Positions 1 to 64,000 of a stretch of 64,000 bases of DNA are shown in pieces; position 1 is the first letter of the stretch, and each line of letters opens with the position of its first letter. The notes under the pieces are model-generated. The model searched no databases. It was given only the letters and a program-made list of their open reading frames with translations, and was not told where the DNA came from. The DNA comes from Gracilariopsis chorda. Its lineage: Eukaryota > Rhodophyta > Florideophyceae > Gracilariales > Gracilariaceae. Location: assembly GCA_003194525.1 (NCBI GenBank), contig NBIV01000141.1, positions 1 through 64,000 on the forward strand, read 5' to 3'. A program made the translations under genes and the position numbers.

Positions 1-2257
1 TGGTCCCCGCTGCGCGGAAGTCTATGGCACGGGCCCAAGCCGCTTACAAGCGGGATTTTGACGCTCGCTTGCGAGGAAACCGTCCCGATTCGGGCAAATA
101 ACTACGTCTTCATCAGGAAGGAGTACTACAACCCGTAGCGGGAGAAGCGTCACAAACTCTCGCCTGTGGCGGATGGACCCTTCAAGGTCATCTCTGTTAA
201 CACCGACACTGTCGTGGTTAGAGATGGCGACACGCACGAACGGATTTCCCGTGATCATGTTGTCCTTGCCCCTCCTCCCTCGTCAGAGGTAGTCCTGGAT
301 CCAGGCAACCCCGTTTCTACGGAGTCTGCAACACCGGAATCATCCGGTAGTACTAGGCCTACGGTACTACCACACCCCAGCCGGGACTCTCAGACCTACC
401 GACTCTGTCGGACCACACCGGCTCAGCCGGGTAATTCGGGCCCCTCAGCGCCCGCCCCTACCACGTCTGCCCCACTGGTGCGCATCTATACCCGCCAGGC
501 GGGGAATGTTATCCCTTATCCTGCCGCTCCGTCTAAGGAGGGGGAGGAGAACACTCGTTTTCGAGGAACGATATCGCCGTCGCAACGGGAAACACACCGT
601 AACATACGGAACACTGACCGTGGAGCACGGAGTATGTCACGCGAAACTAATCCCCCGTTCCCGGGCAGTGCTGTGCAACAGGAACCAGACGCGCAGGCCC
701 CGCAAAAGCGGCAAATACACCGTTTGTCACGGGGAAAACGAGAAGCCTCACTCCAATACCGCAGCAGCGGAAATGCAATCGCCCGATCCATCCCCGGAGG
801 CATCGCCACAAACGCAGAAAAATATACCGTGCTGCACGGGAAGTTGAAGCGCAACTACCGCACACCCCTGTCAGGGAAGGATCCCCGATAAGGGAGTATG
901 GTGACGATTTGCCCGCGATCCCCTGAGCAGGGCGATGCCTCCAAGCCGCCGTTGGCGGAAGTCCCCGCGGAAGCGGTTCAATCAGGTCGATCAGACCCGC
1001 GCCCTGCGGAGAAGAGGGGCCCAGATACACCAGCGCCGCTGGGAAATCCCACACCCAACCTGGGGAAAAAGGCAGCCAAGCCGCAGTCGAAGCTTTAAGC
1101 CCTGGCTCGCAAGCACCGGAAACGCCTCCCGTCGTTGACGGAATCGAAGCCCCCGCTACGGGGAATAATTTGCGCCAACCCCTGCAACGCTGCGGCGAAG
1201 AACCGAAGAACTCGGGAAAAACGCGCGCCATCGCACGCTCGAAACCGGTCGTATCGGACGCTGCTCCTCCTCATGGAGATGGTTGCACCGCGCTTAGCGG
1301 CAATTCCCCTGAAAAGGGTGTCATCGGCACCTGCCCGGCACCCCCCAAAGGGGAATTTTGACCAAAATACCGGTGTACCGGAGTTAGCCCCAGGCAACCC
1401 GTCAGTAGCCGGGGACACCACGGCATCGCCGGAACGTATGGTGCAGAGCGCTCGTGCGCCTGGCAGGGAGGCGGTTTGCCACCCAATCACCGTGTCGCAC
1501 GGGACCCCCCAGGGGATTGTGGAAATGCCGATCCCGCAGGAGCAGTCATCTTCCCGCAAACTCGCGGTTCGTGAGCTCAACCGCGAAGGCGGAGCCCAAG
1601 TCCCCCGCCGACTGGTGGTTCGCCCGCAATACCGCGAAAGCGGAAATGAACCTGCCCCAATGGGGAATGACTTGCCGGTGAAAACGGTGGCACCACACAC
1701 CCTCTTGAGGGATATCTTCCTGCATGAGCAGCGGCCGCTATCACAGCGCACGGCAACGTCGGAGTTATCGCCGAACACCCTGCTAAGGGACATTATACCG
1801 CACAGTGGGCAGCCCCCGCAGGGAAGTACAACCACCACCCGGCACGGCCGGCAGGTCTACGAACGAGAGTTCGTAGTAGACCGACTTGTCGGACACACCT
1901 GGGACCAGGATGGTATTCTACAATACCGCGTCCGCTGGTACGGGTACGACCCAGTGGGGATACGTGGGAGCCAATTGAACACCTCCCACGGTCGCAGGTC
2001 CTGCGATACCACCGTCAAACGGGGACTGCAGCCCCAGCCACGCTGGTTAATGCCCAAGTTGGGTAACGTTGCCGCGCGAGCGGAGAGCGAAAGGAAAGGA
2101 TAACAAGGCAAGGTCCGTCGAAGACGGGGAACTCAACCGAGAAGCACCGTTCTAAACGGGAAAGTTTATTCAAGGGAGCAGCTAGCTCCCCACAATACTA
2201 CACTACACTAACTGGCATAGCCAGGGAAAGAAGAACCAGGAAACTGGACTAGAGGTT

Positions 2258-4045
2258 TCACTCACCCCCATCGTCCGGGGCGTAACCCCCAGCAAGGCGG
2301 TAGGCCAACGCGTCCGCCATGGTGGTGACATCCCCCGATACCTCGGCAGCGCTAAGACCGGCACCCCGGAGGAAACGTGCGATGATTTCGTTTTCATTCG
2401 CCGTCACCCCGCTGGGGATAGAAGGTCCGGCACTTGCCGCCGAAGGGTCAGCAGCCGGCTCGGCCGGAGATACCCCCTCTAGGAAAGCTTCCGCGCTAGC
2501 GCCGGTTTCCTCTACGTCCATCTCCCCGGGTTCTTCCGGTTCGTTATCGACCATTGGGTCATCCCCGCCGTATGCGCGGTAGTAGTCGTCAGAATCGACG
2601 TACCCCACCGAGTGGTCTTCCGGCACATGCCGGGGCGTATCGCGAAGCTCGCGCGCCTCCTCGGAGGAAATTTCCCGGAACTCCCAGGGGTCGAAGTAGA
2701 TAAAATCCCCCGCAAGGGCGGTGTTTCTACCGAGTCCCGGACCACCGGTGTTACCGCTGCCGCCATCCAGACGACCGCTTTGCTCCAGCGGGACCTCACT
2801 CCAGCTAACGCTGTCGATGTACCCAAGTAATTGGAGGACCTCTTCATTGTTGGCCTGGCCCCCAAGGGGGATGCGAAGATCCAGGTTTCGGATCGCTGCC
2901 CGCACACGCGGTTGAAGGAACCAGAGACGATACTGGTCGTACGCCTCGTTGAGGATATAAGCCGCACTGCGGGCCGCCCACTCCGTAACCACTACGGACC
3001 ACAAACCCGACCGGGGATCCTGCATGAGCAGCGAACTGAGGTACGTAAGTACCGGCGGGAGTTCTATGTAGCACCCCCGGCAGGCTTCATGGAAGCGCCA
3101 CCACTCGGGGAGTGCTACATACCGACCTAGTCGGTGAGGCGGCGCAATCCGCTCTATCTCCAAGTTCTGATACGGGATAAAATACCCGAATCGGGATCGC
3201 CAACGCCGCTCGTAGCGGATGAAGTTTTGGAGAAAGTTGGACCGGTATTGCCGGGGAAGGTACCTGAACTCCGCCCGAATAATCGGTCGCTCCCAGCAAA
3301 GGGCTTCTTGCCGCGCTGCGGGGAAATTCCTCCAAGCGAGGGTCTCGAGGCGGAACAGGTTCTCGCCGTACCCAATCTCCCCGCGAGTGCGGAAGTAGCT
3401 AACGTCGAAGCCAAACTCTGGTGGGACCGGTACATCGAATGGAGCCCGGCTCTGCCGTTGATACGCCATGCGCGTCAACGCGGTCTGTGTCGCAGCGACG
3501 GTCTCGCCCGAATTTCTTCGGAGGTGGTGACGCGGAATCGCAATCCGGTGACGCCAGTCCCACGACGTGGTGACTGCTCTCGGCAGATCCCCCGGAAGGG
3601 TGTCTGAGCCATCCGCATAAGCGGTGACCAATCCCTCATTGAGGACAGCGACCGGGTGGAACCACGGGGCAAGGCGCAGGCGTGACGCGTGATTCCGATT
3701 CATCGGGTTGAGCCCCACCAGGGTGTTGTAGGTTGGCCAGTTGGACACCGGAGTGGTTCCGGAGGACACCACCGAAGGTGGTAGTGCGAAGGGATGGTCG
3801 GCAGCAGCAGCCATATTCCCCGGTTGTACCGGATGTCGATCGCCCTGAGGCAGGGGAACTGACCGGAAACCGGTGGTGTATCGCCCGAGAGGTCTCGGAG
3901 GTTGGCTGTGGTTGTTGATGTTGTTGTCGTTGTTCATTTTTCCCTTTTGGAGGGGGGCTGTTGTTGTTGTTTGTGCGCTCGATGACTCTGGTGCAGAGGG
4001 ATTTACCGGGGAACCAGAGACAGAGCACGCGCTTTTATCACCCAA
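2258..4045 (-). CDS. Antisense reading frame of the LTR element, unknown function
   Basis: This is a 595-codon open frame on the strand opposite to gag-pol, between the chromodomain and the 3' LTR, starting about 55 bases inside the LTR border. The product has a low-complexity N terminus rich in N, Q, P and T. Its central half is rich in W, Y, F and R, and its C terminus is acidic (about residues 460-595). I see no signal peptide, membrane segment, zinc motif or known catalytic motif. A homologous frame sits at the same place in the second copy (about 60,393-62,180), where it is broken about once. Antisense frames between pol and the 3' LTR are known in some plant Ty3/gypsy lineages, but I do not recognise this protein. 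It would have to be transcribed from the 3' LTR in antisense or from an internal promoter. Function is unknown. Confidence 0.55.
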   Translation of the reverse strand: MGDKSACSVSGSPVNPSAPESSSAQTTTTAPLQKGKMNNDNNINNHSQPPRPLGRYTTGFRSVPLPQGDRHPVQPGNMAAAADHPFALPPSVVSSGTTPVSNWPTYNTLVGLNPMNRNHASRLRLAPWFHPVAVLNEGLVTAYADGSDTLPGDLPRAVTTSWDWRHRIAIPRHHLRRNSGETVAATQTALTRMAYQRQSRAPFDVPVPPEFGFDVSYFRTRGEIGYGENLFRLETLAWRNFPAARQEALCWERPIIRAEFRYLPRQYRSNFLQNFIRYERRWRSRFGYFIPYQNLEIERIAPPHRLGRYVALPEWWRFHEACRGCYIELPPVLTYLSSLLMQDPRSGLWSVVVTEWAARSAAYILNEAYDQYRLWFLQPRVRAAIRNLDLRIPLGGQANNEEVLQLLGYIDSVSWSEVPLEQSGRLDGGSGNTGGPGLGRNTALAGDFIYFDPWEFREISSEEARELRDTPRHVPEDHSVGYVDSDDYYRAYGGDDPMVDNEPEEPGEMDVEETGASAEAFLEGVSPAEPAADPSAASAGPSIPSGVTANENEIIARFLRGAGLSAAEVSGDVTTMADALAYRLAGGYAPDDGGE

Positions 4046-4100
4046 TTTCGTCTGGGAATCCTCCGCGTCCGCGGTCGTTTTCCCGTCTTAGGGGAGGATA

Positions 4101-4928
4101 TGAAGTGCAACGCCCTCAGGGAGGGATTCTAGGTACTTGAACGTTTTCCCGATATTATCGGTTGTGTAGTGCGTGTATGAACTACGCCCCACAATGATGG
4201 GTATGGACACGTGGGAAACGGTTTTTGGGTCAATTGGCGGTTGGCCACAGTAGTAGATGTTGCCACGAAATGTGGAGTATTTTAGTTAATAATATTTATT
4301 ATTTTCACACCCATTTCTGGGAAGCTAGTACTTAGTGCGACGGCGCACTGCCGTCACACCAGTAAACCTTCCCCAACAAGGGACCCCAACCTGGGGAATT
4401 GGCTCTAGTTGTTGCCGCTTGCGCGCGTACTCTACTCCTCCTTGGAGGGAAACGCCATAAACCACGGGACATCTAACCCCCTTGCACATCTAAAGAAGCC
4501 CATCCTTGGGAGTATAATTGTTCCAATCTTATTGGTGTTTCGCCCTGTATAGGGAGTCCTGTCCATCTGCATTGCGGTATCTGCCCGTCGCTCTCGCGAC
4601 TCACATCGTCCTCTCTTCCTCCTCTTCGCCCTTCCTTTTCCCCATTTTTAGGGTAGCACCTCCCGCTATCCGCAGCCCTCGTGTGCGCATCCCTTCACAC
4701 ACCCCCACTTACGTGGAAACATACCTCTACTGAGGATCACACCCCGCTCACGCGGATACCGATTCTTCGCCTTCACCTCCCTGCACGAGTCGTGACAGGT
4801 GTCCCTGGTCTTACAAACCGGCTTCGCCGTGACACCTCTGGGAAGACTCTACCCAACTGGGTTCACCTCGTGAGAGGAAGATCCCGGACGTCTTTCGGTG
4901 TTTTTTCCCTTTGGGGCATTGCACCACA
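4101..4928 (+). repeat. 3' LTR of the left chromovirus
   Basis: An 828-bp LTR starting TGAAGTGC and ending CACCACA, nearly identical to the two LTRs at 51,369-52,193 and 62,239-63,063. A purine-rich tract precedes it. It is full of small perfect inverted repeats, including a 10-bp stem hairpin in the middle (GTGCGACGGC paired with its complement, with one mismatch in this copy). Confidence 0.93.
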
Positions 4929-10213: not shown

Positions 10214-10540
10214 GACGTGTATATTGGTGTGCGGAGGAGCAATGCGGCATTTGTGTCCAACCGACGCTAGCCTTCACCTTCGGTGTACAGTCGTACAACA
10301 AAGGTAAGATGGTTGTCTTTGGTGCCGTTGCAATCTTTATCCAAACTAGCCAGATATACCTCACAACGGCGTGATGCGTTTTGGAAACGAACGAAAACAA
10401 CGAATTCGTCAACGCGACAAAAAGAATCACGGTCAATAATATACCGGCAACAAGTTGTGTACACCGGAACACACTGTGTCGTACGAAGCAAAAAACACGC
10501 GTTTCAGCAAACCGCAGCCTGCCTCTCAGCACTTCTGTGC
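10214..10540. other. Flotillin upstream region
   Basis: About 330 bases between the flotillin gene and the Harbinger insertion. Open frames on both strands here show no family features. It is likely the 5' flank and promoter of flotillin. Confidence 0.35.
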
Positions 10541-10557
10541 TAAGGGCGTTCCCAACC
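10541..10557 (+). repeat. Harbinger left inverted repeat with TAA duplication
   Basis: TAA target duplication (10,541-10,543) followed by GGGCGTTCCCAACC. It matches the complement of 13,628-13,644. Confidence 0.9.
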
Positions 10558-10722
10558 ATCTGCCCAAATCGCAAAAAAAACGAGGCCAAATGCGCAAACC
10601 TCATTGGACGACAAACACCAGCTCAATATAGGCTGCCCGGCACCATTGGCACTCCGAATGGTCGCAAAACCTTAACTCGACTAAGAACCGAAATCCTTCG
10701 GTGGTTGCAGAAGAACCAGAGC

Positions 10723-13140: not shown

Positions 13141-13627
13141 TACTTTAACAAGCAACCGACTGCCAAAGTCTTAAGGTGCACACCTCAAAAGGTTACCGTC
13201 AAGGTATGTCTAAGGCGTTCAAAGGCGGGTAATCAGTGCAATCATTGCAATTTGGGCTCCGTTGGTCGATGGACAGACCGTAATAGGTCTTTCGGCGCCA
13301 TGCGCAAGCCAACAAAGTGTTTGCATTTCGTCGTTCTTGGCGCCAAAATGTTCCGTGCAAAACACAACAAGGTTGTGCCAAGATGGAGTGCGCGAATGCC
13401 AAACAACGCGGCGTCACCCCGGAGGGGGGTGACGAAGACGATACGACCGGAGATGGGGCGGGTAACCATGCAGAGCTACCAGAGCTTTTAGGGAGCTGGC
13501 CCAAAACGTGTGGGATTTAGGGTGGACTAAAATTTTTAGGCCGAGTTTTGAGAATTGCGTCAACGGTTGGGGGTCAAATTTTGAGCAAATACTGGACTGC
13601 TATGTTGGATTTGGGGTTTACGGTAAC

Positions 13628-31705: not shown

Positions 31706-31710
31706 AAGTA

Positions 31711-32506
31711 TGAAGTGCAATGCCCTCAGAGAGGGGTTCCTGGTACTTGGTTGATTTTCCGAATGTTTCGGTAATGTATTCATTGCATGAACTACGACCA
31801 CTAATAGTGGATTTGACACGTGGGACACGGAAGAAGTAATTGGCGGTTGGCGACAGTAGTGGGCATGAACCTCCAAAGTGGAGGAGTTTAGTTAATTCTA
31901 TTTATTATTTTTACACCCATTTCCGGGATGGTTAGTACTTAGTGCGCCGGCGGGTTGCCGTCGCACCAGTGAACCTTCCCCAACAAGGGACCCCAACCTG
32001 GGGAATTGGCTCTAGACCTCACCGCCTTCCCGTGTTCTCTACTCCTCTTTCGAGGGAAGCACCGTCGCATACGGGAAGTCTAACCCCCTTGCCTATCTAA
32101 AGGACCCGAGTATTCGGATGGTTATTCCAGCTGTCTTGGTGTTCGCTTTCTATAAGGTTTATTTACCGGCACTGCCGTTAGTCTTCGTCACGACACTCGT
32201 CACTCAGCTCCCCCATATTTTTCTCTTCACAGGGTGGCTTTCCCGCTACCCACGGCTCGTGTTCGCGCGTGCCACTAACGTGGAAACCTCACCTCTCTAG
32301 AGGACGACCACCCCCATACATCGCTGCTGCGGATACCCGATTCTTGCCTCAACCTCCCTGCGCAAGTCGCGACGGGCGGCCTCGGCCTTACAACCCGACA
32401 TAGTCGTGCCACTCCTAGGAGGGCTCTACCCAACTGGGCTCACCTCTAACGAGGAAAGATCCCGAACGTCTTTGGGTGCACTCCCGCTTCCGGGCATTGC
32501 ACTACA
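31711..32506 (+). repeat. Solo LTR of the chromovirus family, inside Tc1
   Basis: A 796-bp LTR (TGAAGTGC to CACTACA) with a 5-bp target duplication AAGTA on both sides (31,706-31,710 and 32,507-32,511). There is no internal element sequence, so it arose by LTR-LTR recombination. It is clearly diverged from the LTRs at 4,101, 51,369 and 62,239, so it is older or from a sister family. Its small hairpins sit at the same places as in those LTRs but with different stem bases. Confidence 0.92.
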
Positions 32507-33362
32507 AAGTACAGTAAACAAGTGTTTGGATTTATTGAATTTCGTGGATCTATTTCGCATTTCACATTGTATAGTCTACATAAGTTCTTACTAGGGTCTA
32601 CTTTGCACTTTTGGCCTTCTTGGTGCCGTTAACTGTAATAGTCTTTACGCTCAGACGCACTACTCCACCGTCGATCGGCCTTACTTTTCACGAGCAAGGC
32701 CGGTGGCTTGGTGGACTTATTTGAATTTCGGGGACTGTATCTGCAGGTCTCCGTTTTGCAGTAGTGAGCATATTTTCCGCAGAAGACAACCACTGGTTTA
32801 AGAGCTGAACCATCAACACAAATAACTGCCATTACCATGCCGCAGTCTCCTGCTCTTTTGATTTTGCTCACTTTATGAATCCAGCGGCTCTACGCTTCTT
32901 ACTCCCAATTTCTTTTAATCGCGCTCCTACCAAGGATCTTTGCGAGTGACACTTTTGATTCATCATTGTTGAACACGTGACTCGGATCGGCTATACTTTT
33001 TCATTACGGCATTAAGAACTTCCATAAAACGGCCAATATTCTCTGGGGTAACGGCCGCGACGCGGTTGAACTCAATAACTTGGATTGGTTGATACTTTAA
33101 CTCACGCAGTTCACAGAACAGCAGGACATATTTTTCGGATGAGCGGCCGTTAACGAAGCTAATTTCTTGTCGGCAGTCGAGTGGAAGGGTCAAAATGTAA
33201 TGTGCCATAGGTCAAAGAGACAGGCCTTTGCCAGGGGTGTGTTCTTATTGGCGTACATCTGCAACATGTCTGCGATTTCATGTTCTTTAGTGGTGCAAAA
33301 TGCCCCCAGGGAGAGGAGATCAAGCTATTTTTCACATTTGGGCTTTCGGTAGCCCTAGTAAA

Positions 33363-34404
33363 TGTGGGATAGCGCGAAAGACGTAGAAATCGTGATGATG
33401 CTACTCAGAGGAGTGCGACGTGGGTATCGGGACGACTCTATCATATACGAGCTGGACTCGTACGAGGTGATGCAAATATGATGGTCTACTGTGTGAAGTT
33501 TCGCCTAAGAAGGTAGGAATCTAGAATGGATTGCAGGATGAATGGAGGCGTGTGCGCGTGTGCGCGTGTGCCACAGCAACAGTGCGACAGCAACAGTGCG
33601 ACAGAAACAGTGTGCAACAGCACCAGTTTGCTGCAGCACCAGTGTGCGACAGCACCAGTGTGCGACAGCACCATGCTGTAGTGTTCTTTTTTTCTTCGGT
33701 TGACCTCTCAAGGTGCCTGACACTGACCTGGTCACGTGTGTGGACCTAAGGAGGAGTGAATTATTGTAGTTAATTATTATGATTTATTTGGTAGTGTACC
33801 TACTTAGGTGAGCGCGACCTCGTGGTCGCGATCACTAAATAAAGTTAACTCGAGACTTCGGTCATTCATAACTGTTCAGTTTGACCTGAAGTATCCGGCT
33901 CTGGATTGTGACGTCATTGTGCCATGTACTACTCCTCGCGGAGGGTCACCGCATTCGGTTCGCTCAACTCAACCGCTCGGTAACCATACAGGTACTATGT
34001 GTTATAATTGTCGTGTGACATTTATCTACCGTGTGGTACTAGTATCGCTTCTGTATTGGGTAATTTTTCGCTACATCCCGCGCATGTGCACCATCTGTCG
34101 GGTCTGTTCCCGCTTTCTGCATGACCCACCGGGTGGTATTTCTCCGTTCTTGGAAGTCGCCCTTCATGGGATATATTCTAAACCGACACATCGCTTGGCA
34201 CACTGATCTCTGGTTTTACCGTCTTTCTGGCTCCGGCTCATCTTTCTTTATCCGCCTCAGTGGTCAATCCGAAATACCTACGGAGGTACGCCCGTATTGC
34301 AGGTATACAGAGGGCTTTGTTCACTGGGTCTGCCCCAGAAGCGAGCAGGGTCCCGGACACTTTGATTGTGATACCCAACCTTCGGGTTTGCACTACAGTG
34401 TACG
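33363..34404 (+). repeat. LTR-like sequence of a related family, probably a solo LTR
   Basis: The organisation parallels the chromovirus LTRs: an AT-rich TTAATTATTATGATTTATT stretch, then a GC-rich hairpin (GCGACC-TCGT-GGTCGC), many small hairpins, and an end hairpin next to TTGCACTACA. A candidate 5-bp duplication GTAAA flanks 33,363-34,404, although the right end would read CG rather than CA. It sits at the 5' edge of the pogo gene. The borders are tentative. Confidence 0.5.
33541..33675 (+). repeat. Tandem repeat rich in CAGCA and GTGTGCGA
   Basis: About 8-9 imperfect units of 13-17 bases (for example CAGCACCAGTGTGCGA) inside the LTR-like sequence. A GTGTGCGC run precedes them. This is likely slippage within the LTR. 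Confidence 0.75.
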
Positions 34405-51351: not shown

Positions 51352-51368
51352 TTTCTATTAGCTCTTTC

Positions 51369-52193
51369 TGAAGTGCAACGCCCTCAGGGAGGGATTCTGG
51401 GTACTTGAACGCTTTCCCGATATTATCGGTTGTGTAGTGCGTGTATGAACTACGCCCTATAATGGTGGGTATGGACACGTGGGACACGGTTTTGGGTCAA
51501 TTGGCGGTTGGCCACAGTAGTGGATGTTGCCACGAAATGTGGAGTATTTTAGTTAATATTATTTATTATTTTCACACCAATTTCTGGGAAGCTAGTACTT
51601 AGTGCGACGGCGCACTGCCGTCGCACCAGTAAACCTTTCCCAACAAGGGACCCCAACCTGGGGAATTGGCTCTAGTTGTTGCCGCTTGCGCGCGTACTCT
51701 ACTCCTCCTTGGAGGGAAACGCCGTAAACCACGGGACATCTAACCCCCTTGCACATCTAAAGGGACCCATCACTGGGAGTATAATTGTTCCAATTGCATT
51801 GGTGTTTCGCCCTGTATAGGGATATTGTTACCGGCATCGCCGTTCGTCCCCGTCGCTCTCGCGACTCACTTCGTCCTCTCTTCCTCCTCTTCGCCCTTCC
51901 TTTTTCCCCTTTTTAGGGTAGCACCTCCCGCTATCCGCGGCCCTCGTGTGCGCATCCGCTCACACACCCCCACTTACGTGGAAACATACCTCTAGTGAGG
52001 ACCACACCCCGCTCACGCGGATACCGATTCTTCGCCTTCACCTCCCTGCGCGAGTCGCGACAGTTGTCCCTGTTCTTACAAACCGGCTTCGCCGTGACAC
52101 CTCTGGGAGGGCTCTACCCAACTGGGTTCACCTCGTGAGAGGAAGATCCCGAACGTCTTTCGGTGTTTTTCCCCTTTGGGGCATTGCACCACA
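51369..52193 (+). repeat. 5' LTR of the full-length chromovirus
   Basis: 825 bp, TGAAGTGC to CACCACA. It contains a perfect 10-bp-stem hairpin at 51,602-51,626 and some twenty smaller ones. It has an AT-rich TTATTTATTATTTTCAC stretch just before that hairpin, where a promoter or poly(A) signal would be expected. Confidence 0.93.
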
Positions 52194-52196
52194 AAG

Positions 52197-52209
52197 TGGT
52201 CTCCGGACC
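52197..52209 (+). other. Probable primer-binding site
   Basis: TGGTCTCCGGACC begins three bases after the 5' LTR, as expected for a TGG-starting primer site. It does not match the initiator-Met pattern (TGGTATCAGAGC) used by many chromoviruses. I cannot name the tRNA. The site itself is a small hairpin (GGTC-TCC-GGACC). Confidence 0.5.
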
Positions 52210-52299
52210 TAGAATCGGTTTTTGTTTTCCCTCTTACGAGGTTTGTTTTTATTTACCGGAAGTTCCCTGATCGTTTCCCGTCGTAACGGTATTTTCCCA

Positions 52300-54470
52300 T
52301 GTCGAGAAATCCCTCCGATGCGGAGCCAGTGGTTACGCGTAGTCGCTCCCGCGACAACGCGGACACATCCGAAGTTCGGTTCGTACCCCGTATCCCTATA
52401 CGGACAAGTTCCAGCCGTACTAGCGCCGCTTCATCGCGGAATGATACCCCCGACCGGGAACCTCGGAACCTCCTTTTGCCCTCGTTATCACCCCCGCAGG
52501 GGAATGCAGCATCGACTCCGGCTGTTGCCGCAGTGCCCCAGGCACCCCGGCCTGCTCCAGCTGTCGCGGCTTCAAGCCCTCGTGGAACGGGCGATAACAC
52601 CCCCTAGGGGACTTCCCTGGAATCCCAGGTCCGCGCCCTGTGGACCGCCCATGACACCCTTGTAGGGGAACTAAAATCCCTCCAAGAGGTGGTCTCGGCA
52701 ACCCCCGTAAAGGAGGTCGCCGAGGAACTCCGTATTTTACGGTCTGACGTCAACTCCGTGTTGGAGAGTTTGGGACAACCCTCCACCTTCATCGAAGGAG
52801 TTGAAGCCCGATTTGATCGGATTGGTGCCTGCCTGGAGACGCTGGAGCAGTTCGTCCTCATGGACAAACCATCCCCGGAAGATCCGGTAAACGAGGCATC
52901 GCACAACGACCAGCTTGCTGGGAAGAAGAAACGCCGTCATCGACGGAAACACCACCGAAAATATTCGGACTCCGATTCTTCGACATCGTCGGACTCATCC
53001 CGAAACCATTCGGTTAGCTCGAGCTCCTCGGACTCCGACTCGGAGGACGAGAAGCGAGGCTACTCCTCCCGCTCGAAGCGGTCATCGGCCACTGAAGGTG
53101 TGGTCCGAACCCGCCAGAAGGGGAGAAGACACCCCGGTCTTCGGGAATTGAAACCGACAAACCCGGATTACCGGAAGCTTTTATCATACCGGTACTACCG
53201 GCTCGAAGAATCGTCACTTGGACGTACGCCCCGTGGTACGGGAAAGGTGCGAGAATGCATTAAGCGAATGCAGCTCTCGCTCCGCAACCAGTATTTTACT
53301 GGAGAGGACCCAGTCCTAGTACTGGATTTCCTATCCCGCTTTGTAGCGAAGGCCAATATCCTCGGTATGAATGAGGGACAAGCCTATTTGGCTTTACCGT
53401 ATTTCTTACGGGGAGTGGCGCAGGACCAATACACCTCTGTCAGAGGATCTTCTCGCGCCTCCGAGGGAGGAGTTACTTGCTGGCCGGAGGCTGTGCAGTA
53501 TCTTCTGCGCTCCTACGCCACCAACACCGCTATTCAGCAGGCTATCCTCGCTTTGCGAGATACACGCCAGCGTGCTGGAGAGACCGAGACCGATTACTCG
53601 GTGCGCCTTAACAAGGCTTTCCACAGATTTGGTAACGTATACCCCGCTGGGGAGCGCAGTACCATGTTCATTGATGGTCTTGACCTGGCAATCCGGAGTT
53701 TAGTTACCCGTTATCGGGAGGACAAGCGGAGGATCACCTACCTCGAGCTGGTCCAACAAGCCCGAGCGGAAGGGGATGCACTTCGTGCAAGAACTCCGAA
53801 CAGTCGGTCTAAAACCGCCAAGGCATTGTTGCTGGAAAGCGAAGCTTCCTCTCTCCCGCTCACCGCGGATGGGAACCCTGGACAGGGATTTGATACCGTG
53901 CATTTGGTGCAGGAGGATGGTGTGTCGATACCCACCAGTGATTTATCGTCAACGACGGAGATGACCCGTGATACGGGAACGGAAGACCCCGTTTTGTACG
54001 GTGGTAACAGTCGGGTTCAACCCCAACGACTCCCGTTTTCAAACGGTCAATCCCGTTATCAACGGCCTGGATGGACTGACACCCGCCCTGCGGTTCGCTT
54101 CTCCGATACTCGGAATAATAATCCGCGTGTCGCGGTATTGGCTCTCATTTGCCACCTGTGCTATGCCCATGGCCATACCTCCCCTCAGTGTATTTGTTCA
54201 CTGAAGGATATGGCCAAGGTGGTGGCAAATTATGAGGCCCTCACTCCAGAGGAGAAACGTTCCGTCCCGACGGCTTCCTACCTCCGTGCTAAAACGGACT
54301 TTTCCCACGCCCTACCACAGACCCCGCGTGCGCGGCAAGCTTCATACACCCCGATTCGGGAGATCACGCAACCATCCGTTGCAACCCCCGCTTATGCGGA
54401 TAGAAACCCCCGTCAACGGGATGAAGCACTCGTTGTAGAGGAAACCAACCCACCGCCGAAGGCGGAAAAC
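52300..54470 (+). other. gag region of the chromovirus
   Basis: Coiled-coil and serine/arginine-rich leader, then a retrotransposon gag (capsid-like) domain (YFTGEDPVLVLDFLSRFVAKA, AETETDYSVRLN-like block, about 53,280-53,800). A CCHC zinc knuckle CHLCYAHGHTSPQC lies near 54,155. The region is largely open. Confidence 0.85.
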
Positions 54471-54499
54471 TAACTGAGGGAGTCTTCCCTTTGGGAGAG

Positions 54500-57400
54500 G
54501 CGTCCTCAAGAACGAAGCTGTTGGCACCCGAGGCGTCCTCGCCTCGCTCCCCGGTGAAAGTCCTCTCGAGGAAAGACACCGCTGACGCGGACTCTGCGCA
54601 CCTCGGTGTGTTGCGTCGCCCGTGGATACGGAGTAAAAATCCCCGGATTCCCGGTAGATTCTTGGTCTTGGCCAAGCGCAATTATAAGGTCTATGCCGAC
54701 CTTGGCCTTGACCCCCAGTTTATGGTGAGGTTTCTCACCGTCCTGGATACAGGTGAAGGCCCCAACTTTGTTGTGGAATCATTGTTACCCCCACTTGTGT
54801 GGTCGCGTATCCGCTCTGACGCGGTCCCCGACATTTCGGATGCGAACAACAATCCGTTACAAACGGTGGGCACAGTGGACCTCGTCGTGAGACTTGGTAC
54901 CTCTGTGGTGAAGTTGGACTTCATCGTTTGCCGTTCATTGGCAGCACCAGTCATACTGGGATGTGATTACTGCGACAGATTTGTCGACGCAATCAGGCCC
55001 CGCCTCAGGCGTGTAGAACTTGACGACGGATCGTCGGTTCCGATTGTTCGCCGCCCGCTAAAGCGGTCCTCTCGGAAACAAGTTCCGCTCCCTGCTGCGC
55101 AGGAACCACCGCCCGCGTCCCGCGAGTCCACCAAGCTCCGCGTCGCTGCCTCGGTTTCTATACCGGCTGAGTCCCAAGTCTGAGTGCAGGTAAATTCCCG
55201 TCAACACGGTCTTCGGTTTATACAACCCCTCGCCTCGTTGTACGAGAAATCCCAGCTGGCGCTGGCTAATGGAATTGTCTCCATTTCCCCGGATGTCCCT
55301 TTCCGGATATTGGTTGCCAACCTTGGCAAACACCCCCAGCATCTGGTCAAACACCAAGTAATTGGGAGTGTAACCCCCCATCCTATGGGAATGCTGCCAA
55401 CAAAGATGACAGCCGCCGATGTACTCGGAGTTACCACCTCTTCTAAGGAGTTCGACCCGCCGTCCGAAGACGTCAAGTCTAAGGAGGGGGAGGAAACCGC
55501 TACTCCAGCGTCGAACATACCGAGTAACTCGGAATTGCGAACCACACCTGTTCCACAGGACAATGCTCCATCGAGCAACGACCGGATTGATCCGGAAAAA
55601 GCACTTGAAGCGCTGGACTTCAGCCACGTGCCAGAGTCGCACCGCGACAAACTCCGTACTATGTTACGGGAATTCACCACAATGTGGGATGGCTCGCTTG
55701 GGGAGATTAATGCAACGGAACACCGGATCGATTTAATCCCCGGTGCGCGACCGGTTGCACAACCCCCTTACAGGGCAGGTCCGAAAGCTCGGGAAGAGGA
55801 GCAGTCCTAAGTGGACAAGATGCTCCGCGCAGGTGTGATTGAGCCCGCTCAATCACCCTGGGCATGCCCAGTTGTACTGGCTTTAAAGGCCGACGGAACC
55901 TGGAGGTTCTGTGTCGACTACCGCCGGCTCAATGCCGTGACTGTTAGGGACACGTACCCTATCCCTCGTATGGACGAGTTTATTGACTCCCTTGTGGAGA
56001 CGCCACCGTGTTCACGGCCCTTGATGCCAATTGGGGATATTGGCAAGTACCTATCAGACAGGAGGATCGCGACAAAACCGCATTCACCTGCCACGCAGGA
56101 ACGTACCGCTTCAAGCGGATGCCATTTCGGTTAACCAACGCCCCCGCCACCTTTCAGCGTGCAGTAGATATTTTACTCAACCGCTTTAAGTGGCGGAGTT
56201 GTCTGGTCTACCTTGATGATATTATCATCTTCTCCAACTCGTTGGACGACCACCTCACTCACGTCCGAGACGTGCTGACCGTACTCCGCGATGCGGGAAT
56301 TACCCTCAAGTTGAGGAAATGCGAGTTTTTCACAGATACTGTGAAGTATCTGGGTCACATTATCCGTCCTGGACGGTTAGCGATCGAGAAAGCTCGAGTC
56401 AAATCCCTCGTCGAGGCGAAAGAACCCCGTACTCAAACGGAACTGCGCTCCTTTTTGGGGCTGGTCAACGTCTATCGACGGTTTATCCCGAACTTTTCGG
56501 ATACTGCGGCGCCCCTAAACGCGTTGTTGCGAAAGGGGAACCCCCCAAAACTGGGAACATTTGTGCCCGAGCAATCGGAAGCTTTTAACTCCTTGAAGGA
56601 GGCTGTCACATCAACACCGATCCTACATCTCCCGAAACTTGGGTTGCCATACTCCGTAGATACGGACTCGACCGACTACCAAGTCGGGTGTGCTCTTTTT
56701 CAAACCACCCCTGAGGGGGAACGACATCCAATTGGTTATTGGTCGCGCTCGCTCAATGTTCATGAGCGGAACTACTCCGTATCGGAGAAAGAGTGCCTCG
56801 CCGTCGTATGGACGATGACCACTCTGCGCCCTACCTTATGGGAATTCACTTCACCGTGTACACGGATCATTCCTCATTGAGGTGGTTGATGAATATCTCC
56901 GACCCGTTGGGACGCCTCATGCGCTGGAGACTCCGCCTCGCGGAATATGAATTTCAAGTCATTTATAAAAAGGGCACGCAGAACACCCAGGCCCACGCTT
57001 TGTCGCGGTTACCCACAAGTGGGGAAGCACTCCCAACGGAGGATGATGAAGTCCCATGTTTCATGGCTATAGACCCGGATGATCCGGAATATGCCGTCGA
57101 GGCTAGGCCAGAAACCTGGGACGAGGATGCTGATTTTGACGAACTACTCGCATCGCGAGATAAATCTGAGAACCCGTTACCGGGAAACGTTGTACCGGTA
57201 TCACCGGAAGAAATGATCCGTGAACAATTCGGCGACCCATTCTGTACGAGAATTCGTGCCCGTATCAACGGTGGTGAAGATCTCCCTTTCGGGTTAAACG
57301 ACAAAGGCTACCTCGTAAGGAAGGTCGAAGCCCGCCTACAGATTGTGGTACCGCATTCCCTGCAATCGCGGGTGTTACATCTATCACACTACGCCCCCAT

Positions 57401-58300
57401 TGGAGGTCACCCAGGTGGGAGGAAAGTCTACCTAACCCTGCGAAGGGATTTCTATTGGCCCGCAATGGCGGTGGATTGCTACGCAACTGTGCGGTTTTGT
57501 AGCGAATGCGCGAAGAATCGCGTCAAGCTCCGCAAAAATGCGAAGAAGATGAAACTATTCCCCGCAAGGGCGCCACTCGAGTTTATCGCAATTGATCTTC
57601 TCGGACCACTACTCACCACAAAACGTGGAGACAAGTTTCTACTTGTCATCACCGACCGCTTTTCTAAGCTGGTACGGACTGTCCCTCTTCGGAGGATAAC
57701 CGCTCTCACGGTGGCCCAGGCTCTGGTGACGCACTGGATTTTTGTCTACGGTCCCCCTGTGGAGGTGCTCTCCGATAACGGGAAACAGTTCGTGAGCAAG
57801 TTCTTCCAGGATGTTTGTCGCATCCTGGATGTCAAGAACTTGTTAACGACTACCTACCACCCCCCAGTGTAATGGGCAAGTTGAACGGTTTAACCGGACG
57901 TTACTCGCGGCGTTACGTTCCTACGTCGCTGACCACCCAACGAATTGGGATCTCTACGCTGATGCGGTAACCTACGCGTACAATACGCAGGTACACCGGA
58001 CTACCGGAGTTTCGCCATTCGAGTTGGTTCTATCCAGAACACCCCCGCCTGTGGCGCTGGAACCCCAAGCTACCTTGGACAATTTCCCATCTGTGGGTAT
58101 CTACCGGCAGCAATGGAAGCAATGGCTTTCCAAGCTGGTCCCCGCTGCGCGGAAGTCTATGGCACGGGCCCAAGCCGCTTACAAGCGCGATTTTGATGCT
58201 CGCTTGCGAGGGAAACCGTCCCCGATTCAGGCGAATAACTACATCTTCATAAGGAAGGAGTACTACAACCCGGAACGGGAGAAGCGCCATAAACTCTCGC
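54500..58300 (+). other. pol region: protease, RT, RNase H, integrase
   Basis: The protease has the active-site triad LDTGEGP (near 54,745) and VILGCDYCD. Reverse transcriptase (about 55,720-56,400) shows WRFCVDYRRLNAVT, VYLDDIIIFS and LGHIIRP. RNase H (about 56,640-56,960) has YSVDTDSTDYQVG and YTDHSSLRWL. Integrase (from about 57,330) has the H2C2 zinc-binding start and the catalytic IDLLGPL and LSDNGKQF blocks. The region is broken several times. Confidence 0.9.
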
Positions 58301-59989
58301 CTGTGGCGGATGGACCATTCAAGGTCATCTCTGTTAACAGCGACACTGTCGTGGTAGAGATGGGCGACACGCACGAACGGATTTCCCGCGATCGTGTTGT
58401 CCTTGCTCCTCCTCCCTCGTCAGAGGTAGTCCTGGATCCAGGCAACCCCATTTCTATGGACTCTGCAACACAGGAACCATCCGGGAGTACTAGACCTACG
58501 GTACTACCAAACCCCAGCCGGGGACTCTCAGACCTACGGACCCTGTCGGACTCACCGGCTCAGCCGGGTGATTCGAGCCTCTCAGCGCCCGCCCCTACCA
58601 CGTCTGCCCCACTGGCGCGCATCTATACCCGCCAGGCGGGGAATGTTATCCCTTATCCCGCCGCTCCGTCTAAGGAGGGGGAGGAGAACACTCGTTTTCG
58701 AGGAACGATATCGCCGTCGCAACGGGAAACACACCGTAGCATACGGAACTCTGACCGTGGAGCACGGAGTATGTCACGCGACACTAATCCCTCGTTCCCG
58801 GGCAGTGCTGTGCAACAGGAACCAGACGCGCAGGCCCCGCAAAAGCCGCAAATACACCGTTTGTCACGGGAAAACGAGAAGCCTCCCTCCAATACCGCAG
58901 CAGCGGAAATGCAATCGCCCGATCCATCCCCGGAGGCATCGCCACAAACGCGGAAAACATACCGTGCTACACGGGAAGTTGAAGCGCAACTACCGCACAC
59001 CCCTGTCAGCGAAGGATCCCCGATAAGGGAGTATGGTGACGATTGCCCCCAATCCCCTGAGCAGGGCGATGCCTCGAAGCCGCCGTTAGCGGAAGTCCCC
59101 GCGGAAGCGGTTCAATCAGGTCGATCAGACCCGCGCCTTGCGGAGAAGGGGCGCCCAGATACGCCGGCCTCGCAGGGAAGTACCCACACCCCTCTTGGGG
59201 AAAAAGGCAGCCAAGCCGCAGTCGAAGCTTTAAGCCCTGGCTCGCAAGCACCGGAAACGCCTCCCGTCGTTGACGGAATCGAAGCCTCCGCTACGGGGAA
59301 TAATTTGCGCCAACCCCCGCAACGCTGCGGCGAAGAACCAAGGAACTCGGGAATAACGCGCGCCATCGCACGCTCGAAACCGGTCGTACCGGACGCTGCC
59401 CCTCCTCATGGAGATGGTGCACCGCACTTAGCGGCCAAGCCCCTGAAAAGGGTGTCATCGGCACCTGCCCGGCACCCTCCAAAGTGGAATTTTGACCAAA
59501 ATACCGATGAACCGGAGTTAGCCCCATGCAACCCGTCAGTAGCCGGGGACACCACGGCATCGCCGGAAGGTATGCTGCAGAGCGCTCGTGCCCCTGGTAG
59601 GGAGGCGGTTTGCCACCCAATCACCGTGTCGCACGGGACCCCCCAGGGGATTGTGGAAATGCCGACCCCGCAGGAGCGGTCATCTTCCCGCAAACTCGCG
59701 GTTCGTGAGCTCAACCGCGAAGGCGGAGCCCAAGTCCCCCGCCGACTGGCGGTTCGCCCGCAATACCGCGGAAGCGGAAATTGACCTGCCCCAATGGGGA
59801 ATGACTTGCCGGTGAAAACCGTGGCACCACACACTCTTTTGAAGGATATCTTCCCGCATGAGCAGCGGCCGCTATCAAAGCGCACGGCAACGCCGGAGTT
59901 ATGGCCGAACACCCTGCTAAGGGACATTATACCGCACAGCGGTCAGCCCCCGCAAGGAAGTACAACCACCACCCGGCACGGCTGGCAGG

Positions 59990-60140
59990 TCTACGAACGA
60001 GAGTTCGTAGTAGACCGACTGGTCGGACACACCTGGGACCAGGATGGTATTCTACAATACCGCGTCCGCTGGTACGGGTACGACCCCAGTGGGGATACGT
60101 GGGAGCCAATTGAACATCTCCCACGGTCGCAGGTCCTGCG
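59990..60140 (+). other. Chromodomain at the end of pol
   Basis: The sequence FVVDRLVGHTWDQDG, then QYRVRWYGYDPSGDTWEPIEHL is a clear chromodomain with the aromatic residues for methyl-lysine binding. It defines the element as a chromovirus. In these elements the domain is thought to steer integration to marked chromatin. Confidence 0.92.
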
Positions 60141-60392
60141 ATACCACCGTCAAACGGGAACTGCAGCCCCAGCCACGCTGGTTAATGCCCAAGTTGGGTA
60201 ACGTTGCCGCGCGAGCGGAGAGCGAAAGGAAAGGATAACAAGGCAAGGTCCGTCAAAGACGGGGAACTCAACCGAGAAGCACCGTTCTAAACGGGAAAGT
60301 TTATTCAAGGGAGCAGCTAGCTCCCCACAATACTACACTACACTAACTGGCATAGCCAGGGAAAGAAGAACCAGGAAACTGGACTAGAGGTT

Positions 60393-62180
60393 TCACTCAC
60401 CCCCATCGTCCAGGGCGTAACCCCCAACAAGGCGGTAGGCCAACGCGTCCGCCATGGTGGTGACATCCCCCGATACCTCGGCAGCGCTGAGACCGGAACC
60501 CCGGAGGAAACGTGCGATGATTTCGTTTTCATTCGCCGTCACCCCGCTGGGGATAGAAGGTCCGGCACTTGCCGCCGAAGGGTCAGCAGCCGGCTCGGCC
60601 GGAGATACCCCCTCTGGGAAAGCTTCCGCGCTAGCGCCGGTTTCCTCTACGTCCATCTCCCCGGGTTCTTCCAGTTCGTTATCGACCATTGGGTCATCCC
60701 CGCCGTATGCGCGGTAGTAGTCGTCAGAATCGACGTACCACACCGGGTGGTCTTCCGGCACATGCCGGGGCGTATCGCGAAGCTCGCGCGCCTCCTCGGA
60801 GGAAATTTCCCGGAACTCTCAGGGGTCGAAGTAGATAAAATCCCCCGCAAGGGCGGTGTTTCTACCGAGTCCCGGACCACCGGTGTGTCCGCTGCCGCCA
60901 TCCAGACGACCGCTTTGCTCCAGCGGGACCTCACTCCAGCTAACGCTGTCGATGTACCCAAGTAATTGGAGGACCTCTTCATTGTTGGCCTGGCCCCCAA
61001 GGGGGATGCGAAGATCCAGGTTTCGGATCGCTGCCCGCACACGCGGTTGAAGGAACCAGAGAAGATACTGGTCGTACGCCTCGTTGAGGATATAAGCCGC
61101 ACTGCGGGCCGCCCACTCCGTAACCACTTCGGACAACAACCCCGACCGGGGATCCTGCATGAGCAGCGAACCGAGGTACGTAAGTACCGGCGGGAGTTCT
61201 ATGTAGCACCCCCGGCAGGCTTCATGGAAGCGCCACCACTCGGGGAGTGCTACATACTGACCTAGTCGGTGAGGCGGCGCAATCCGCTCTATCTCCACGT
61301 TCTGATACGGGATAAAATACCCGAATCGGGATCGCCAACGCCGCTCGTAGCGGATGAAGTTTTGGAGAAAGTTGGACCGGTATTGCCGGGGAAGGTACTT
61401 GAACTCCGCCCGAATAATCGGTCGCTCCCAGCAAAGGGCTTCCTGCCGCGCTGCGGGGAAATTCCTCCAAGCGAGGGTCTCGAGGCGGAACAGGTTCTCG
61501 CCGTACCCAATCTCCCCGCGAGTTCGGAAGTAGCTAACGTCAAAGCCAAACTCCGGTGGGACCGGTACATCGAATGGAGCCCGGCTCTGCCGTTGATACG
61601 CCATGCGCGTCAACGCGGTCTGTGCCGCAGCGACGGTCTCGCCCGAATTTCTTCGGAGGTGGTGACGCGGAATCGCAATCCGGTGACGCCAATCCCACGA
61701 TGTGGTGACTGCTCTGGGCAGATCCCCCGGGAGGGTGTCTGAGCCATCCGCATAAGCGGTGACCAATCCCTCATTGAGGACAGCGACTGGGTGAAACCAC
61801 GGGGCAAGGCGCAGGCGCGACGCGTGATTCCGATTCATCGGGTTGAGCCCCACCAGGGTGTTGTAGGTTGGCCAGTTGGACACCGGAGTGGTTCCGGAGG
61901 ACACCACCGAAGGTGGTAGTGCGAAGGGATGGTCGGCTGCAGCAGCCATATTCCCCGGTTTTACCGGATGTCGATCGCCCTGAGGCAGGGGAACTGACCG
62001 GAAACCGGTGGTGTATCGCCCGAGAAGTCTCGGAGGTTGGCTATGGTTGTTGATGTTGTTGTCGTTGTTCATTTTTCCCTTTTGGAGGGTGGCTGTTGTT
62101 GTTGTTTGTGCGCTCGATGACTCTGGGGCAGAGGGATTTACCGGAGAACCGGAGACAGAGCACGAGCTTTTATCACCCAT
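60393..62180 (-). pseudogene. Antisense reading frame of the chromovirus, copy 2
   Basis: Same position and nearly the same protein as the intact frame at 2,258-4,045. It is broken about once and carries more than a dozen amino-acid differences by eye. No known family recognised. Confidence 0.6.
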
Positions 62181-62224
62181 TTTCGTCTGGGAATCCTCCG
62201 CGTCCGCGGTCGTTTTCCCGTTTT

Positions 62225-62234
62225 AGGGGGGGGG
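62225..62234 (+). other. Polypurine tract
   Basis: A run of A and nine G just before the 3' LTR, the usual place for second-strand priming. The left copy has AGGGGAGGA at the same place. Confidence 0.7.
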
Positions 62235-62238
62235 CATA

Positions 62239-63063
62239 TGAAGTGCAACGCCCTCAGGGAGGGATTCTAGGTACTTGAACGTTTTCCCGATATTATCGGT
62301 TGTGTAGTGCGTGTATGAACTACGCCCTATAATGGTGGGTATGGACACGTGGGACACGGTTTTGGGTCAATTGGCGGTTGGCCACAGTAGTGGATGTTGC
62401 CACGAAATGTGGAGTATTTTAGTTAATATTATTTATTATTTTCACACCCATTTCTGGGAAGCTAGTACTTAGTGCGACGGCGCACTGCCGTCGCACCAGT
62501 AAACCTTCCCCAACAAGGGACCCCAACCTGGGGAATTGGCTCTAGTTGTTGCCGCTTGCGCGCGTACTCTACTCCTCCTTGGAGGGAAACGCCGTAAACC
62601 ACGGGACATCTAACCCCCTTGCACATCTAAAGGGACCCATCAATGGGAGTATAATTGTTCCAATTGCATTGGTGTTTCGCCCTGTATAGGGATATTGTTA
62701 CCGGCATCGCCGTTCGTCCCCGTCGCTCTCGCGACTCACTTCGTCCTCTCTTCCTCCTCTTCGCCCTTCCTTTTTCCCCTTTTTAGGGTAGCACCTCCCG
62801 CTATCCGCGGCCCTCGTGTGCGCATCCGCTCACACACCCCCACTTACGTGGAAACATACCTCTACTGAGGACCACACCCCGCTCACGCGGATACCGATTC
62901 TTCGCCTTCACCTCCCTGCGCGAGTCGCGACAGGTTTCCCTGGTCTTACAAACCGGCCTCGCCGTGACACCTCTGGGAGGGCTCTACCCAACTGGGTTCA
63001 CCTCTTGAGAGGAAGATCCCGAACGTCTTTCGGTGTTTTTTTCCTTTGGGTCATTGCACCACA
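62239..63063 (+). repeat. 3' LTR of the full-length chromovirus
   Basis: 825 bp, the same length as the 5' LTR and about 98% identical to it. Many of the differences fall in hairpin loops. Confidence 0.93.
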
Positions 63064-64000
63064 AATTGTTCCATGCACCTTGATTACTGAAGAGCCAACG
63101 TACCTCTGAAAAGACTGAACAATAGTATCACCTGAACTCAAGAACAAACAATCCAATCCCACCCGCACCATAAGCCGCATCAAACGCCTATCCTCAGTCT
63201 TAGACTTAGACCAAAGAAGGTTCTCAATCTTCTCACCATGTTTTCCCTCTTCTTTTCATCTGGTACCGAAGCAGTTAGTCTTCCGAAGAACTCGGCAAAC
63301 GTATTTACAGCCAAGTTTGCCCCCTGCTTTGGGTCGTAAACTTTCAACAGATCACATCCAAAGAACTTCAACCCAAATCTTTTCGGATCACTCGGATCTA
63401 GCTTGGTATTGGCGGTTGTAGCGCCAATAAATCTTCCCACAAACTTATCAGAGCGTGCTTTGTCAATCTGCATATCAAAAAGGTCACGAACAAGTTAGTA
63501 AAAGCATTCGCTGAAAATAGTTCGCTCGATTGGTGAGTCTACTAGACCTGCAAATAAGTCGATACTCCTTTCCTGGTGTTTGATCGATCTTCGAACTGAA
63601 CGTCGCCATTAGTTCCTCATGCAAAAAGCCTTCCAAAAATTTCCGGAACGGTCCAGTGAAGAGGCTCCTAATCTCAGAGATACTACGCAAGAAGCTCATG
63701 TCGAAGGCTGAAGGCTCACCGAAAAGCTGCCAAAAATACCCGAGAGAAGCCGGCTGAGATGTTTTTGTAGAATTATCTCCAGTCGAGTTTGAACAGACGT
63801 AGATCAAGCTTGCGGAGCACGATCACGATTCCTTATGCTTCTTCTCCCTCGACTACGCTCACCCGTTTGCACAAATATGGTGCCAAATGGCAATTATGAT
63901 ATTTACGTTGTGCTCACTTGGCGGCCGGAGAGAGCAGGGATAGAGGGAATGCCCTGACTCTGCGGATCTACTGGTTGAAATCCATAATAGGGGTGTATTA
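63064..64000 (-). other. Unrecognised minus-strand coding-like region
   Basis: Two open minus-strand stretches (63,807-63,484 and 63,473-63,180) look like pieces of one protein (FRKFLEGFLHEELMATF, SDKFVGRFIGATTANTKLD, FGCDLLKVYDPKQGANLAVN, MVRRLRTFFGLS). A further piece is in another frame (63,183-62,998). They may be exons or frames of a broken gene. I do not recognise the family. The last 190 bases show nothing. Confidence 0.3.

Follow-up and report, generated by a model that had tools for sequence, protein, structure and literature searches.

Small perfect hairpins along a Ty3/gypsy chromovirus clade of the red alga Gracilariopsis chorda

The element and its hairpin excess

The window analysed here is a stretch of 64,000 nucleotides (nt) from the red alga Gracilariopsis chorda (contig NBIV01000141.1, positions 1 to 64,000, forward strand). 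A Ty3/gypsy chromovirus of a family designated A lies on the plus strand at 51369..63063 and is carpeted with small hairpins from end to end. The element is bounded by a 5' long terminal repeat (LTR; TG...CA) at 51369..52193 (+), which is hairpin-rich (window z up to 9.5), and by a 3' LTR at 62239..63063 (+), located by its repeat alignment with the 5' LTR. The two LTRs form an 827-nt direct-repeat alignment with 14 mismatches (98.3% identity), and the printed sequence places the CA end 2 nt short of where this alignment stops. No target-site duplication is present at the outer LTR ends of this copy (CTTTC at 51364-51368, AATTG at 63064-63068), so the copy may be a recombinant between elements.

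The Gag frame (52608..54473, +, stop to stop) carries a Lys/Arg- and Ser-rich stretch, a conserved middle part and one CCHC zinc knuckle (C-x2-C-x4-H-x4-C; residues 515-528 of the frame; 54150..54191, +), which was identified by pattern match to the knuckle consensus. It was aligned with the Gag frames of two further families, B and C, and of a related contig, L074 (described below), with 51, 48 and 38% identity, respectively. The CCHC pattern is present in all four and was not found in the frames of at least 120 amino acids (aa) checked at L072, the locus of subfamily A'. The pol region is split over several frames: a reverse transcriptase (RT)/RNase H piece (55987..56880, +; PF00078 1.1e-28, PF17919, PF17917), a piece with the RNase H end and the integrase (56766..57872, +; PF17917, PF17921, PF00665), a "linker" frame from the integrase core to the chromodomain (57847..59784, +; no Pfam match up to E 0.01) and the chromodomain frame (59785..60201, +; PF00385 2.4e-11). 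The order RT-RNase H, integrase, chromodomain is that of Ty3/gypsy chromoviruses. The linker frame spans 645 aa from stop to stop and is Pro/Ser-rich by eye; a frame of this length between integrase core and chromodomain is unusual for a chromovirus. Near the 3' end lies an antisense open reading frame (ORF) of 453 aa (60819..62180, -), hairpin-rich and with no Pfam match up to E 0.01; relatives were found in G. chorda (53%) and Gracilaria domingensis (48%).

The 3' part of a second family-A element occupies 1..4928 (+) and contains the linker, the chromodomain region, the antisense ORF (2687-4045, -; 96.9% protein identity between the two ORF copies) and an LTR (~4,101-4,928) that is 94% identical to the 5' LTR of the first element. 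A hairpin-rich solo LTR at 31709..32510 (+) is 74-75% identical to family-A LTRs and belongs to the same family as subfamily A'. A search of 51,300-63,100 against Rfam gave no match at the gathering threshold.

Unless stated otherwise, hairpins were counted as perfect stems of at least 4 bp with loops of 3-8 nt, and dinucleotide controls consisted of 60 shuffles in 300-nt blocks. The element (51,369-63,063) contains 559 hairpins, against 246.8±17.4 in the shuffles (z 18.0; 47.8 per kb), and the left copy (1-4,928) contains 224, against 106.2±10.5 (z 11.3; 45.5 per kb). The rest of the window (4,929-51,368) has 1040 hairpins vs 921.9±31.2 after shuffling (1.13-fold, z 3.8; 22.4 per kb). In 600-nt windows the excess starts and stops at the element borders: z exceeded 2.5 in 29 of the 30 windows starting from 51,201 to 62,801, and was 2.3 in the remaining one. 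The original prediction, made by eye, had listed eight hairpins at 55198..55389 (+); all of them are present, and 13 were found by script in these 192 nt. Non-overlapping hairpins number 356 in 11.6 kb of element, 199 of them with a CC..GG base, and 42% of the element lies inside non-overlapping hairpins with loops of 3-6 (16% in shuffles).

In the coding frames, shuffles that preserve the protein, the codon use and the dinucleotides were used, and loops of 3-5 were counted. The excess persisted in gag (74 hairpins vs 28.6), the next frame (29 vs 10.6), the RT piece (33 vs 14.4), the integrase piece (33 vs 13.4), the linker (64 vs 27.3), the chromodomain frame (20 vs 7.2) and the antisense ORF (46 vs 21.1). 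The predicted run of the texture through gag, pol, linker, antisense frame and left copy was thus borne out, each part exceeding its shuffles, and neither these shuffles nor the host genes reached the density of the element. Among host genes, which had been expected to lack a comparable texture, the Band-7 gene (15 vs 15.9) and the SBBP gene (19 vs 16.9) were at shuffle level; the glycosyltransferase gene has a mild excess (53 vs 38.1, z 2.8).

Distribution and form of the hairpins

Loci were sampled from the 91.3 Mb genome as follows: a nucleotide search with the element of the window gave 20, the RVT_1 profile gave 30 (its best places, with 150 scored of 3380 candidates) and a copia profile gave 20. 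The 50 gypsy loci fall into three families (A, B and C), 63-66% identical in aligned codons, and the ratio of observed to shuffled hairpins was 2.35-3.52 in the nine that were measured. When a 603-nt stretch of the element was searched against the genome, 40 places were scored of 926 candidates, with identities of 98-100%. Subfamily A' (L072), 82.8% identical to A, is hairpin-rich, as are further B and C loci (L084-L087, L093, L094). In open frames, against codon-preserving shuffles, the counts were 112 vs 38.6 for A (L006, z 16.3), 100 vs 48.3 for B (L025, z 7.3) and 99 vs 43.7 for C (L042, z 8.5); copia frames gave 40 vs 42.3, 39 vs 36.2 and 7 vs 7.8. The ratio over copia loci was 0.73-1.19 (5 measured of 20 loci). 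No excess was seen at four further Ty3/gypsy loci of this genome (L090, L091, L092, L095; 29-38% protein identity), whose ratios were 1.26, 0.93, 0.98 and 1.36 (z -0.5 to 2.1). A host-wide mutation bias is disfavoured by the copia ratios and by those of the four gypsy loci.

Ten chromovirus-like contigs (L074-L083) are filed under bacterial and archaeal metagenome-assembled genomes; they are probably eukaryotic contamination of prokaryotic assemblies. The closest of these relatives, L074 (50% identity), has 105 hairpins vs 48.0 (z 9.3). For the other nine the ratio was 0.72-1.29 when whole loci were counted, with z reaching 2.5 and 2.7 in two of them, and 0-1.16 within the matched part. An RT tree was built from 14 rows, with L074 filling 39% of the columns and with A', L081-L083, L093 and L094 left out; in it A, B, C and L074, the rows rich in hairpins, group together at a support of 100/100. 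The hairpin carpet is a property of one chromovirus clade, comprising three families and one subfamily in this genome and one contig from elsewhere. An excess confined to a single family, as originally proposed, was too narrow a view: A, A', B, C and L074 all carry it. None of 24 pattern matches in viral contigs was confirmed, and a literature search at the level of titles and abstract openings returned no description of such a carpet.

Statistics of hairpin form were pooled over A, A', B and C unless stated otherwise. The most enriched type has a 5-bp stem and a 3-nt loop (111 vs 12.3 expected; 8.8-fold in A, 10.3 in A', 6.8 in B, 6.0 in C and 6.5 in L074), followed by the stem/loop types 5/4 (50 vs 12.9), 4/4 (164 vs 50.9), 4/3 (115 vs 50.7) and 4/5 (115 vs 53.4). 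Stems of 3 bp are not enriched (0.9-1.0x) and stems of at least 6 bp are few. By total length, hairpins of 11, 12, 13 and 14 nt are enriched 2.25-, 3.2-, 3.6- and 2.0-fold, those of 15-16 nt 1.3-fold, and from 17 nt on the ratio is about 1; in the element itself, loops of 7 and 8 are at shuffle level (40 vs 36.9 and 41 vs 37.1). The predicted range of stems of 4-6 bp and loops of 3-8 accordingly held at stems of 4-5 and loops of 3-5; the excess is weak at loop 6 and absent at 7-8. In 5-bp stems with one odd inner pair (five families pooled), G-U was enriched 1.22-fold, A-C 1.19-fold and other mismatches 1.10-fold, against 4.42-fold for all-Watson-Crick stems. The hairpins are strictly Watson-Crick, 11-14 nt long and of nearly fixed size. 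At six positions (closing, inner and outer), the pooled test of G-U/A-C asymmetry gave p values of 0.05-1.0 and did not reveal which strand folds. Inspection of the hairpin lists, made without a formal test, showed no dominating super-stable loop motif.

The base of the stem carries a mark. When two inner pairs are complementary, CC-N7-GG, CC-N8-GG and CC-N9-GG occur 51, 92 and 73 times in family A vs about 6 each (6.1 for CC-N8-GG); in the reverse order, GG-N7-CC, GG-N8-CC and GG-N9-CC occur 8, 5 and 10 times vs about 6 (5.6 for GG-N8-CC). The enrichment of an outermost C-G vs G-C pair is 6.7 vs 1.4 in A, 7.0 vs 1.5 in A' and 5.8 vs 1.1 in B. In family C the C-G preference lies one pair inward (5.1), with T-A, C-G or A-T outermost. 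The stem-base patterns of B and C were broadly reproduced in held-out loci. Nearest-neighbour energies do not distinguish CC/GG from GG/CC, so the CC..GG order seems to be read by something. On the plus strand of family A, CC..GG hairpins are flanked by A over T in sense-coding regions (112:44) and in the LTR (13:3).

Hairpin centres in family A are preferentially 18-23 nt apart (114 pairs vs 71.7, z 6.1), and the same spacing is preferred in A' (z 3.2). Distances of 30-35 nt are rare in A (43 vs 66.1) and those of 39-44 and 60-65 nt are slightly raised (z 1.9 and 2.2); shuffled sequence treated in the same way had no preferred gap. A hairpin every 20-25 bases, as first proposed, comes close to this commonest spacing; for non-overlapping hairpins with loops of 3-5 the mean is one in 32.6 nt. 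Hairpin-free gaps of at least 40 nt are not avoided (53 vs 45.5 expected).

Elsewhere in the window, the host glycosyltransferase gene (23,176-26,886) encodes a protein 76% identical to one of Agarophyton chilense and 79% identical to one of Gracilaria domingensis, matches that fit a Gracilariales host. Local hairpin excess outside recognised elements was seen at 23201-23800 (z 3.8, inside the glycosyltransferase ORF), 26801-27400 (z 3.4) and 12801-13400 (z 3.2); in and around these stretches, 0/17, 1/22 and 2/23 hairpins, respectively, have a CC..GG base. Another dispersed repeat, at 33201-34200 (40 places scored of 211 candidates, mostly 83-86% identical over the last 540 nt), is hairpin-rich (z up to 5.8) and has no match to the gypsy proteins used; it is perhaps the LTR of a further family. 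The window also contains a transposase ORF (10381-12054; Pfam Plant_tran, DDE_Tnp_4), an ORF with a Uma2-like endonuclease domain (19559-20821) and a purine-rich repeat of 42-nt period with five overlapping 84-nt copies (20384-20671).

Selection on the hairpins and their possible reader

Between A and A', four-fold sites were changed at 36 of 183 positions in stems (0.197), 25 of 52 in loops (0.481) and 106 of 273 outside (0.388; p=2e-6), and the stem effect remained after stratification by base (odds ratio 0.40, z -4.2). Intact hairpins number 53 of 101, against 21.0±4.0 expected, and six are intact though changed (1.4 expected); 37 of the 57 with a CC..GG base are intact and 16 of the 44 without. 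Only 10 pairs have both bases replaced with complementarity retained, not clearly more than the 5.6±2.2 expected, and 375 pairs are unchanged; conservation therefore accounts for more of the signal than covariation. When A, B and C were compared, 10-14 of 67-89 hairpins were intact vs 1.8-3.1 expected: most hairpins have turned over between families while the density has been kept.

Variants were also compared among 20 family-A copies (reference L005; 1062 stem, 416 loop and 2112 outside sites). Private variants are even or somewhat stem-heavy (130/1062 stem, 38/416 loop, 203/2112 outside), those in exactly two copies number 10, 2 and 33, and those in at least three copies number 2, 9 and 45 (2/1062 stem sites vs 54/2528 others). 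The difference between variants in at least two copies and private ones gave p values of 2.5e-6 (L005), 5e-6 (L001 as reference) and 0.014 (L014). With stems defined in any copy, the odds ratio for variants in at least three copies was 0.285 (p 5e-5); for CC..GG stems and variants in at least two copies it was 0.217 (p 6e-6). The test was not significant in copia. Purifying selection thus keeps the hairpins of family A while the lineage is active. The original prediction had left selection for local RNA or DNA folding and a palindrome-making process side by side; selection is supported in family A, since four-fold stem sites are conserved and since shared, not private, variants avoid stems.

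The general-folding half of that prediction fared less well. The mean folding-energy z per 100 nt of plus strand is -0.91 in A, -1.10 in A', -0.43 in B, -0.35 in C and -1.14 in L074, with host and copia controls at -0.28 and -0.53 to 0.12, and the energy of A is the same on both strands. The proposed check on folding energy thus found the element lowered, but mildly. General RNA folding was rejected as the selected property because the energy is only mildly negative and equal on both strands, G-U pairs do not significantly better than A-C, the size is near-fixed and the base is family-specific.

A protein that recognises single-strand hairpins is suggested by their geometry, by the mark at the stem base and, in A, by flanks that differ between the strands. 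Gag is a natural candidate because it must bind genomic RNA over its whole length, and we tentatively propose, from sequence evidence, that the hairpins are dispersed signals read by the element's Gag/nucleocapsid, most likely on genomic RNA. Each hairpin would be a recognition unit on the single-stranded nucleic acid of the element, most likely the genomic RNA, and the Gag polyprotein, which has a CCHC knuckle and a basic stretch, would attach to such units at intervals of about 20 nt. Through this binding the element RNA would be selected and compacted inside the particle, much as happens with dispersed packaging signals in certain RNA viruses. The identity of the hairpin at a given place would be irrelevant, individual hairpins turning over while density and form are kept, and family-specific changes in Gag could track the family-specific stem base. 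In the part of the Ty3 literature consulted, particles are described with ~20 nt of RNA per Gag (PMC6525542), beside which the 18-23 nt spacing in A can be set, and the CCHC knuckle of Ty3 as critical for RNA packaging (PMC4974528). In a broader and equally tentative wording, the clade would carry a coding-compatible "hairpin code": a quasi-periodic lattice of 11-14-nt Watson-Crick units with a lineage-specific base, read, roughly one hairpin to each protein copy, by an element protein that co-evolves with it, whether Gag/nucleocapsid or a different one.

A number of observations weigh against a Gag-read signal. Sequence searches of Pfam and PDB gave nothing clear for a capsid domain in Gag, the agreement with the 20 nt of Ty3 may be coincidence, and double changes between A and A' are few. 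CCHC knuckles are common in the Gags of elements without such hairpins. The preferred spacing was not seen in B, C or L074, nor the flanking adenine in B or L074; in family A the flank bias is weak in the antisense-ORF region (CC..GG hairpins 21:13, p 0.17; all hairpins 31:17, p 0.04), and in the LTR it is lost when all hairpins are counted (16:13, not significant). The hairpin form is present in L074 without base polarity, and CC-Nx-GG is itself mildly raised where the first inner pair is non-complementary (77-111 vs 67-69, x 5-10). The test of shared vs private variants was not significant in C (odds ratios 0.70 and 1.25 in two versions) and had too few variants in B. Finally, G-U was not significantly above A-C in any of the five families, and one-sided changes between A and A' gave 16 G-U and 29 A-C (expected 39.6 and 38.2; in reverse 12 vs 19). 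Scarce G-U is not what one would expect if the hairpins fold in plus-strand RNA.

Because of this missing G-U tolerance the main rival, although we consider it rather unlikely, is that the hairpins act in cDNA while it is single-stranded, or on the two strands alike: minus-strand DNA, and displaced plus-strand DNA as well, would fold into hairpins that aid reverse transcription, shield the cDNA or serve as nucleocapsid sites. Strict Watson-Crick pairing with G-U and A-C alike is expected of DNA or of a need on two strands, the preference for loops of 3-5 over 7-8 fits DNA loop energies better than RNA ones, and the one-sided changes look as if the minus strand mattered; against it, the pooled test separates G-U from A-C significantly at none of the closing, inner and outer positions, and the polarity of the CC..GG base is not explained by a cDNA role alone. 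That local RNA structure hides the transcript from small-RNA silencing or another RNA-sensing defence would fit the dense cover and the turnover, since such a role would demand density alone. We nevertheless regard it as improbable: hairpin-free gaps long enough for small-RNA pairing are not avoided, the overall energy is lowered mildly, the measured copia and other gypsy loci of the same host lack the carpet, and base polarity and family-specific base stay unexplained.

A neutral maker of mini-palindromes, such as RT template switching that corrects imperfect palindromes, would yield perfect Watson-Crick arms without G-U, in one polymerase lineage and with turnover. It has little probability in view of the conserved stems, four-fold sites included, the avoidance of stems by shared but not private variants in family A, and the double Watson-Crick changes, whose number (10 pairs, with 375 unchanged) is too low for correction to have run either way; nor would it give a reason for CC..GG over GG..CC. 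The strong over-representation of dyads ending in CC/GG, and the mild one of non-complementary dyads, could also point to a two-fold-symmetric binding site on double-stranded DNA (CCG...CGG-like) for a host or element protein. This is very unlikely, as strong enrichment requires inner complementarity (at gap 8, 92 vs 6.1 against 77 vs 67), the inner bases are otherwise free, the spacing is variable and the flanks of family A differ between the strands. Composition, codon use or chance has a negligible probability: the element has a G+C content of 0.53-0.62 in most 1-kb windows, above most of the window, and the glycosyltransferase gene has its mild excess, but this source of hairpins is ruled out by the dinucleotide- and codon-preserving shuffles, with the copia and other gypsy controls also against it.

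If the proposed reading by Gag or another element protein is true, the carpet is a whole-genome signal for assembly or cDNA handling, whereas the packaging stem-loops known from retroelements number one or a few. Sequence statistics alone show that numerous tiny structures of an LTR retrotransposon, synonymous sites included, are under purifying selection, and in such elements the rates at third codon positions cannot be taken as neutral. Were Gag to read the hairpins, the families would offer a natural system with several hundred varying sites for testing dispersed assembly signals.

Comparison with known systems

The elements share with Ty3/gypsy chromoviruses the RT, RNase H, integrase, chromodomain, LTRs and a Gag with a CCHC knuckle; they differ in the hairpin carpet, the long frame between integrase and chromodomain and the antisense ORF near the 3' end. 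Ty3, compared by its published description, likewise has a Ty3/gypsy Gag with one CCHC finger, and the ~20 nt of RNA per Gag is a Ty3 figure; no hairpin carpet is described for it in the portions of PMC4974528 and PMC6525542 consulted.

Genome-scale ordered RNA structure (GORS) is known from some RNA viruses, in which structure extends genome-wide and single structures are mostly unconserved between relatives. The present elements resemble it in that structure covers the whole element and single hairpins are mostly not kept between families. In apparent contrast to GORS, the energy is barely lowered (z -0.91 in A, strands equal) and the structure consists only of 11-14-nt hairpins of near-fixed form without G-U tolerance.

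The dispersed packaging signals of single-stranded RNA viruses (MS2 and others), as outlined in the part of PMC6281560 consulted, are likewise many scattered hairpins; they have a common feature and are proposed there as coat-protein sites. Hairpins in many places genome-wide above chance are found in the elements of this clade, and the stem base that might serve as a common recognition feature is CC..GG in A, A' and B and a different one in C, with no such preference in L074. In contrast to those viral signals (PMC6281560), the candidate feature lies here at the stem base and not in the loop, the pairing is strictly Watson-Crick, the carrier is an LTR retrotransposon and Gag is the putative binder.

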